Shown: positions 60,847 to 61,350 of the stretch, one piece after another | How positions within the stretch are numbered: position 1 is the first letter of the stretch | How the letters are laid out: each line of letters begins with the position of its first letter | From: Blastococcus sp. TF02A-26 | GTDB taxonomy: Bacteria; Actinomycetota; Actinomycetes; Mycobacteriales; Geodermatophilaceae | DNA: 64,000 nucleotides | Direction: 5' to 3' | Assembly: GCF_003319125.1 (NCBI RefSeq) | Contig: NZ_QOHG01000002.1 | Span: 186,001-250,000 of the forward strand | Made by a program: the position numbers and the translations under genes | The notes under the pieces: generated by a model | The model's input: only the letters and a program-made list of their open reading frames with translations | Told to the model about the DNA's origin: nothing | The model's database searches: none

Positions 60847-60915
60847 AGCCACACCACTGTAGTTCGGACGGGTGACACTCCCGCCGCCGTCGGCACCTGT
60901 GGCAGACTCCTCCCC

Positions 60916-60978
60916 GTGCTCGCCACGGTCGGCTTTTACTACGGCCACCGGGATCCGGTGTCCGTCACCGCTGGCTGA
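60916..60978 (+). CDS. Putative leader peptide with Phe-Tyr-Tyr for chorismate mutase attenuation
   Basis: A 20-residue reading frame, VLATVGFYYGHRDPVSVTAG, with three consecutive aromatic codons (TTT TAC TAC at 60934-60942). GTG is 7 bases after a CAGACT -10-like box (60903-60908) and lacks a ribosome site, so it may be read as a leaderless message. The stop is followed at 17 bases by a terminator stem. The downstream gene makes prephenate, the precursor of exactly Phe and Tyr, so attenuation by charged tRNA supply is the natural reading. Not shown experimentally here. Confidence 0.6.
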   Translation: MLATVGFYYGHRDPVSVTAG

Positions 60979-61023
60979 GCAACCGCCGCAACAGACGCCC
61001 CGGGCCCGAGGAGCCCGGGGCGT
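60946..61023 (+). promoter_or_regulatory. Attenuator: alternative stems and intrinsic terminator before chorismate mutase
   Basis: Stem 1:2 is CACCGG (60946-60951) with CCGGTG (60955-60960), just after the FYY codons. The terminator is ACGCCCCGGGC (60995-61005) with GCCCGGGGCGT (61013-61023), followed by TTCTCGTT. A weaker antiterminator, GGTGTC (60957-60962) with GACGCC (60994-60999, one wobble), excludes both. A ribosome stalled on FYY would block stem 1:2 and favour it. Confidence 0.6.
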
Positions 61024-61074
61024 TTCTCGTTCCCGGGGTCCGACGGCCGAGAGCCCGACCCGCAGGAGGACCCG

Positions 61075-61350
61075 ATGAGCACCACCGCCGCCACCACCGC
61101 CGACGCCGACGTCGACCGCATCGGCGAGCTGCGCCAGGAGATCGATGCCTGCGACGCGCAGATCATCGAGCTGGTGCAGCGCCGCCTCGCCGTCTCGCAC
61201 GAGATCGGCGCCCTGCGGGCCGCCTCCGGCGGCACCCGGCTCTCCCTCTCCCGGGAGTCGCAGGTCCTGACCCGCTTCCGCTCCGCCCTGGGGGACGACG
61301 GCGCGACGCTGGCGCTCATGCTGCTCCGGCAGGGCCGCGGCCGCCTCTGA
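61075..61350 (+). CDS. Chorismate mutase (AroQ class)
   Basis: A 91-residue all-helical chorismate mutase, which turns chorismate into prephenate for Phe and Tyr synthesis. IGELRQEIDACDAQIIELVQRR is the first helix with the catalytic Arg and the LRxxIDxxD pattern (core ELRQEIDACDAQ); VSHEIGALRAASG holds the second Arg region; helix three is SRESQVLTRFRSALG. Its short form and place beside the uvrD-type helicase gene match M. tuberculosis Rv0948c, which needs DAHP synthase for full activity. ATG 61075 follows AGGAGGA. A Phe/Tyr leader and attenuator precede it. Confidence 0.9.
   Translation: MSTTAATTADADVDRIGELRQEIDACDAQIIELVQRRLAVSHEIGALRAASGGTRLSLSRESQVLTRFRSALGDDGATLALMLLRQGRGRL

Follow-up and report, generated by a model that had tools for sequence, protein, structure and literature searches.

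Upstream of the chorismate mutase gene in the window (the whole 64,000-nucleotide stretch of DNA that was analysed), a short open reading frame and a series of alternative hairpins very probably act as a classical ribosome-mediated transcription attenuator, with charged tRNA-Phe and tRNA-Tyr as its signal and chorismate mutase (CM) as its target. Judged by the available sequence tests, the attenuator is real and widespread, and related switches appear to lie in front of the gene for this enzyme in many further actinobacteria, mycobacteria among them. The kind of switch is already known; this member and its breadth apparently are not. The features of the locus, with the evidence used for each, are as follows.

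60898..60908, plus strand: −10-like element TGTGGCAGACT (extended −10 type), ending 7 nt before the leader start; best match in 49 leaders.
60916..60978, plus strand: leader open reading frame (ORF) VLATVGFYYGHRDPVSVTAG, including the stop codon; position and core sequence kept before CM.
60934..60942, plus strand: putative regulatory codons TTT TAC TAC (Phe-Tyr-Tyr); codon counts in 49 leaders of the order.
60916..60934, plus strand: predicted outer helix, 5' strand, at the leader 5' end; co-evolves in the family of the window.
60963..60982, plus strand: predicted outer helix, 3' strand, around the leader stop codon; folding and permutation test.
60943..60951, plus strand: predicted hairpin 1, 5' arm GGCCACCGG; covariation over 36 distinct rows.
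60955..60963, plus strand: predicted hairpin 1, 3' arm CCGGTGTCC, which also starts the antiterminator 5' arm; covariation and duplex pairing.
60955..60977, plus strand: predicted antiterminator, 5' arm (CCGG, CGTC and stop-proximal pairs); own partner beats all 20,000 permutations.
60984..61005, plus strand: predicted antiterminator, 3' arm, overlapping the terminator 5' arm; duplex tests and modelling.
60994..61025, plus strand: predicted terminator hairpin with a 12-pair main stem including one G-U, a 7-nt loop and a short T tract; hairpin finder and folding.
61064..61069, plus strand: Shine-Dalgarno sequence AGGAGG of CM; by eye.
61075..61350, plus strand: chorismate mutase, type II, 91 aa, ATG at 61075; Pfam CM_2.

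The frame of 20 residues with consecutive Phe, Tyr and Tyr codons that the earlier note had described was read directly in the sequence at 60916-60978, with TTT TAC TAC at 60934-60942. The leader reads GTG CTC GCC ACG GTC GGC TTT TAC TAC GGC CAC CGG GAT CCG, followed by GTG TCC GTC ACC GCT GGC and the stop codon TGA, which lies 96 nt before the CM start. That the gene behind it is a chorismate mutase, as the same note had stated, was borne out by a Pfam CM_2 match of 45 bits against a cut-off of 27, which places the protein in type II. On its other side the leader is flanked by a divergent gene for a UvrD/PcrA helicase, and a gene for a GGDEF protein lies downstream of CM. Rfam families yielded nothing at gathering scores within the window, and the fold of a 191-nt stretch of the region was of ordinary stability when compared with shuffled sequences (z −0.70). 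Because of this value, folding energy alone is insufficient, and it is conservation that singles out the region. A search of the same genome for further copies of the leader returned four other matches, all with E values of at least 0.37, as against 3.6e-8 for the copy at CM; one weak extra match is the same palindromic hairpin on the opposite strand. The bare pattern TAYGGNNACCGG was rejected as a search probe, being uninformative (26 matches vs 64 for its reversed control). A simple scan saw no leader with Phe/Tyr codons before the DAHP synthase or prephenate dehydratase genes of this genome. By eye, the DAHP synthase gene may itself be leaderless, with a GTG six bases behind TACCCT.

Among 59 related genomes of the order, CM was matched in 57, and the upstream stretch was read for all of these: 50 loci from 12 families, then the seven lowest-scoring loci (families f2, f6, f7, f9 and f10). 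A leader with Phe/Tyr codons was found upstream of CM in 56 of the 57 genomes (49/50 and 7/7). Among the seven lowest-scoring loci, VHTTQRFFYGYRSSVSSVV is an example and MTHQRRYFAETRDGSGS, in L278, the loosest leader; all statistics rest on the 49 leaders, without these seven. The one exception among the 57, L039, keeps the promoter-like element and lacks the F-x-Y core. The 49 leaders are 18 to 25 codons long and start with GTG (42/49) or ATG (7/49). The earlier note had proposed comparing the interval among relatives, and the codons proved to be retained, Phe being present in 49/49 and Tyr in 48/49, with the exact F-x-Y arrangement in 44, and a permissive finder placed a terminator-like hairpin behind 49/49. 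The last codon before hairpin 1 is Tyr in 46 leaders and Phe in three, and the residues upstream of the aromatic codons are without conservation across families. Phe is mostly encoded by the rare codon TTT (53 of 80 Phe codons), which accounts for 0/44 Phe codons in the CM stretches of the same loci and 1/37 in three genes of the window, both small backgrounds; Tyr is mostly encoded by the common TAC (75 of 86 codons). The leaders of L275 and L277 (VQTTGREFFYGFRYAFFGAAAHFATG and VTGRAYPRFVFAYAYAFAGTGPVFAR) contain unusually many Phe and Tyr residues, which suggests that ribosomes could stall at more than one place.

In 49/49 leaders an element near TGTGGCA[GCT]ACT precedes the start codon by 6 or 7 nt, gaps of 3-10 nt having been scored. 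Start codons were chosen by best promoter match from the ORFs containing an aromatic pair, which means that this gap is not wholly selection-free. The match to the consensus is just 6 of 11 in L035 and L036. Since the −10 hexamer ends at about −7, transcription is predicted to start on or next to the start codon, leaving no space for a Shine-Dalgarno sequence in the leader. The leader mRNA is, judging from this spacing, probably leaderless.

The earlier note had placed a CACCGG/CCGGTG stem directly behind the aromatic codons. This stem is present, and it extends to GG.CACCGG / CCGGTG.CC, pairing 60943-60951 with 60955-60963 at −10.7 kcal/mol. Covariation was examined in a gapless alignment of 37 of the 49 leaders (36 distinct rows), near-identical ones having been removed; the rows are related, hence not independent. 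The helix GGNYACCGG/CCGGTRNCC was paired in 88.3% of cells vs 80.1% after shuffling, and its covariation score was 0.250 vs 0.105 for shuffled alignments, none of 500 of which reached it, with slid versions of the helix scoring 0.022 to 0.146. Two-sided changes occurred in 5 of the 9 pairs, a count that was equalled by 8/500 shuffles and by the +3 slide control. One leader, L041, is without a stable hairpin 1, without Tyr and without the switch.

A GGTGTC/GACGCC antiterminator, as the earlier note had suggested, can form, but the best-scoring duplex is longer and partly different, joining CCGG and CGTC of the leader to CCGG and GACG of the terminator arm, with additional pairs near the stop codon. 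Pairing was tested between the leader from behind hairpin 1 to the stop codon and the spacer plus terminator 5' arm, with only distinct sequences admitted to the duplex tests (37, 47 and 44 of 49). For 37 distinct loci the native duplex averaged −19.85 kcal/mol, vs −16.33 (sd 0.43) when partners were swapped among loci and −14.46 (sd 0.52) when the 5' arm was shuffled; none of 20,000 permutations did as well as the native partners. Pairing outside the terminator arm gave the same native-over-swapped result. The pairs differ between loci, e.g., GUGGGUC/GACCUAC in L034 and GGUGGU/ACCACC in L047. In the leaders from the pattern scan described below (91 distinct, from species partly shared with the order set), 2/20,000 permutations were as good, and a weaker effect was seen outside the order (263/20,000, 15 loci).

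The predicted terminator of the window has the form GACGCCCCGGGC-ccgagga-GCCCGGGGCGTT(T), with a folding energy of −27.8 kcal/mol. The hairpin with a short T-run reported in the earlier note is recovered, its main stem being of 12 pairs if one G-U is counted and its T tract (TTTCTCGTT) imperfect. A permissive finder, in which a T run was preferred and not required, placed a terminator-like hairpin behind 49/49 leaders, usually around GCCCCGGG/CCCGGGGC, with poor bounds in L038 and L044. The finder missed L204, L218 and L233; with a looser version, hairpins turned up in 64/64 distinct Mycobacteriaceae-type loci. T tracts vary from TTTTTT to short, interrupted runs; they are short in the family of the window and poor in mycobacteria, where GTCTCTTGT is typical of the examples. 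Apart from the leader, the plus strand upstream has no gene that could end at this hairpin, a position that points to premature termination of transcription from the leader promoter. In one mycobacterial locus, L095 (f8, g19), the leader is intact and the terminator stretch looks, by eye, shortened or lost.

We modelled sequestration of the terminator 5' arm for RNA transcribed up to the terminator loop. The mean over 49 leaders was 0.32 in free RNA, 0.70 with a ribosome stalled on Tyr, 0.77 with a ribosome stalled on Phe and 0.10 with a ribosome at the stop codon. A switch, defined by values below 0.5 in free RNA, above 0.5 in the Tyr stall and below 0.5 at the stop codon, was found in 38/49 loci vs 8% of 490 shuffles, and was absent in 11/49. 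Among 64 distinct Mycobacteriaceae-type leaders, the arm was sequestered above 0.5 in both stall states in all 64, in free RNA in nine and in the stop state in one. When the whole terminator was present with the ribosome on Tyr, equilibrium preferred the terminator (mean P 0.88, above 0.5 in 46/49). Because equilibrium favours the terminator once its 3' arm has been made, the switch must be kinetic, the antiterminator forming first. Taken together, the compensatory changes, the preference for native over swapped partners and the modelling with its shuffle control support the geometry of classical ribosome stalling that the earlier note had proposed.

A further helix was predicted between the 5' end of the leader and the region of its stop codon. 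In the free leader of the window, all start-codon bases but the first are paired, and the ORF is closed into a long imperfect hairpin in which the aromatic codons lie largely within an internal loop. Across the 49 free leaders the start codon was paired above 0.5 in 40, yet this was also true of 135/245 shuffles. Permutations matched the native co-evolution of the outer helix in 0/20,000 cases both in the family of the window (31 leaders) and in other families of the order (16 leaders), and in 18/20,000 cases outside the order (16 loci). Mycobacteriaceae-type leaders gave it no support (10571/20,000 permutations as good), and it was weak across the pattern-scan set (755/20,000). From these permutation tests, the outer helix probably holds in the family of the window and in other non-Mycobacteriaceae families and is not general. 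It would hold an untranslated or finished leader in the terminating state.

CM is the first enzyme of the Phe/Tyr branch. With conservation, co-evolving pairing and modelled mutual exclusion as the observations, we infer the transcription start, the stalling, the termination and the physiological signal in the following scheme. Transcription would start at or next to the leader GTG, as the promoter spacing implies. With ample Phe and Tyr, the translating ribosome would reach the stop codon and cover the antiterminator 5' arm; the terminator would then form, and transcription would end before CM. If Phe or Tyr were scarce, the ribosome would stall on TTT-TAC-TAC and cover the 5' arm of hairpin 1, and the freed 3' arm CCGGTG...GTC could pair with the emerging 5' arm of the terminator. 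Once this antiterminator had formed, RNA polymerase would continue into CM.

The leader core was also scanned as a pattern over genome contigs, independently of CM. At least 118 stretches matched, and 115 of the 118 listed have CM close downstream, the CM match starting 131-254 nt behind the pattern start on the same strand. Of the other three, L162 and L191 have no CM in their stretch, which ends soon behind the leader, and L205 (Nocardioides) is an apparent chance match inside a gene. Genera among the listed matches are Mycobacterium, Mycolicibacterium, Mycolicibacter, Mycobacteroides, Rhodococcus, Pseudonocardia, Actinomycetospora, Nakamurella, Jatrophihabitans, Blastococcus, Geodermatophilus, Modestobacter and Trujillonella. 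L205 was excluded from the pattern-scan set, and 4 of the 117 others (L128, L181, L185, L230) were without a start codon fitting the rule; TTT made up 137 of the 216 Phe codons in the 113 leaders of this set. The rule for that set admitted no gap other than 6 or 7 nt, so the set is uninformative on the spacing from the promoter. One matching stretch with CM behind it, L125 (SPQJ01000012.1), is labelled UNVERIFIED_ORG Bacillus sp. AZ43; because it carries both, it has probably been assigned to the wrong organism.

A covariance model of the 33-nt core matched in 167 of 199 sampled genomes of the order and in 43 of 53 genera (E up to 0.05), a count that contains at least two matches not at CM, since two of the 16 chance-like loci described here (G054 and G112) are genomes of the order. 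CM lay downstream in 30/30 loci taken from those 167 genomes. A different 30 loci from the core model (L060, L094-L122) included 14 with a CM match, of which only L094 is outside the order; the remaining 16 appear, by eye, to be chance matches, most of them within coding sequence. In L100 and L104, both mycobacterial, about nine or ten extra codons are inserted in frame ahead of the Phe-Tyr codons.

In a sample of the class, 38 of 118 genomes gave a CM match with the query; 27 of the 38 lie outside the order, and the best-scoring 19 of these 27 were read. By eye, a GC-rich hairpin is immediately preceded in all 19 by Phe and Tyr codons that are neighbours or separated by a single codon; in 16 an ORF starting with ATG or GTG could be assigned as the leader. 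Ten loci of family f31 read F-T-Y-G-x-R-P-x-G-C-H-G-R or similar, three of seven loci of family f30 read F-Y-G-x-R-A-R-S-P, and L268 and L258 read F-Y-P-D-R-P-P and F-F-Y-G-Y-R-P-P-V-A-V, respectively. Among five loci of family f8 read with this sample, no leader was seen in L242, L246 and L249. L245, which is the same locus as L039, and L248 (both genus g31) still have the promoter-like element, followed after 6 nt by an ATG, but have lost the Phe-x-Tyr core (by eye); these loci are possibly decaying attenuators, or attenuators with another signal.

We considered whether the leader could work otherwise. The peptide core G-[HY]-R-x-P-V-x-V is strongly conserved across many families, as would be expected of a nascent-chain arrest peptide that stalls by its sequence, perhaps sensing a ligand, and not via uncharged tRNA. 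However, the conserved residues are those whose codons build hairpin 1, the pairs of which change on both sides, and the hairpin is still predicted where the residues differ (GTGSPAAV in L034, GSGHPAAV in L037, GNRPTGCH and GDRARSP outside the order), so that the helix explains the conserved core. The motif also lies behind the aromatic codons and would therefore be unmade when a ribosome stalls there. Arrest by the peptide is thus quite improbable. Somewhat less so, but still unlikely, is a leader acting mainly on translation, by coupling or reinitiation at CM, or through Rho-dependent termination, with a hairpin that is no effective terminator. The short or imperfect T tracts of many members would fit such a role; against it stand the 96 nt between leader stop and CM start in the window, the AGGAGG that CM has of its own, the placement of a hairpin behind every one of the 49 leaders by the permissive finder, and the co-evolution of the hairpin 5' arm with the leader.

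The ordinary folding energy of the region would be compatible with a gene for a small conserved protein beside an incidental hairpin, or with a chance arrangement. Given that 115 of the 118 listed pattern matches precede CM, that the pairings co-evolve and that conservation across families is absent upstream of the aromatic codons, either is scarcely credible. Ribosome-mediated attenuation remains the preferred reading. A broader version of it, in which one ancestral attenuator has governed entry into Phe and Tyr synthesis across much of the class Actinomycetes, with one stall site reading both Phe and Tyr through a retained codon for each and, in many non-Mycobacteriaceae families, an entire leader ORF, its leaderless start codon too, folding onto its stop region and thereby counting just the first ribosome per transcript, is offered tentatively and is itself rather doubtful.

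As regards novelty, a 2005 survey states, in the part of its text available, that no RNA regulation is conserved before Phe/Tyr operons in Actinobacteria. No attenuator before an actinobacterial monofunctional CM was found in the titles and abstract openings searched. A CM attenuator may have been described elsewhere already; the accessible portion of PMC1173090 cites a web database of putative attenuators. If confirmed, the switch would give a phylum that includes mycobacteria and antibiotic producers a point at which Phe/Tyr synthesis is controlled in transcription, and it offers defined codon and hairpin changes for testing. The 49 leaders have just 7 to 13 codons ahead of their last aromatic codon, which would also make the switch well suited to the study of classical attenuation in an mRNA lacking a 5' untranslated region. 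It could be proposed as an Rfam family.

Among known systems, the E. coli pheL leader carries Phe codons only and has its own ribosome-binding site. At pheL-pheA, a Phe-dependent leader and terminator follow the same alternative-hairpin logic before an enzyme with CM activity. Unlike the CM of the window, this enzyme is proteobacterial and a bifunctional CM-prephenate dehydratase (PMC11802643). The closest reported case in the excerpts available is C. glutamicum AroR before aroF, with adjacent Phe/Tyr codons (F-Y-F) and a gene of the aromatic pathway (PMC11802643, PMC4046766). As described in those excerpts, AroR controls DAHP synthase, whereas the attenuator of the window precedes CM, and the F-Y-F leader is reported to respond to Phe, not Tyr (PMC11802643). 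Dual sensing of Phe and Tyr is therefore not to be assumed. The earlier note had regarded a leaderless start as an uncommon design for an attenuator, which does not hold in Actinobacteria going by the accessible parts of the literature: several attenuator leaders of S. lividans are reported to be leaderless, with regulatory codons followed by hairpins, and the start site of C. glutamicum ilvL is one nucleotide from the start codon, close to the arrangement predicted here. In 2014, Neshat et al. reportedly described the C. glutamicum AroR leader as leaderless too. The eight leader peptides named for S. lividans in the source text available include none for Phe/Tyr. The mycobacterial polycysteine leaders are reportedly also leaderless or near-leaderless, with regulatory codons followed by hairpins, a design predicted for the leader of the window; like those of S. 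lividans and ilvL, they concern other amino acids and other target genes.
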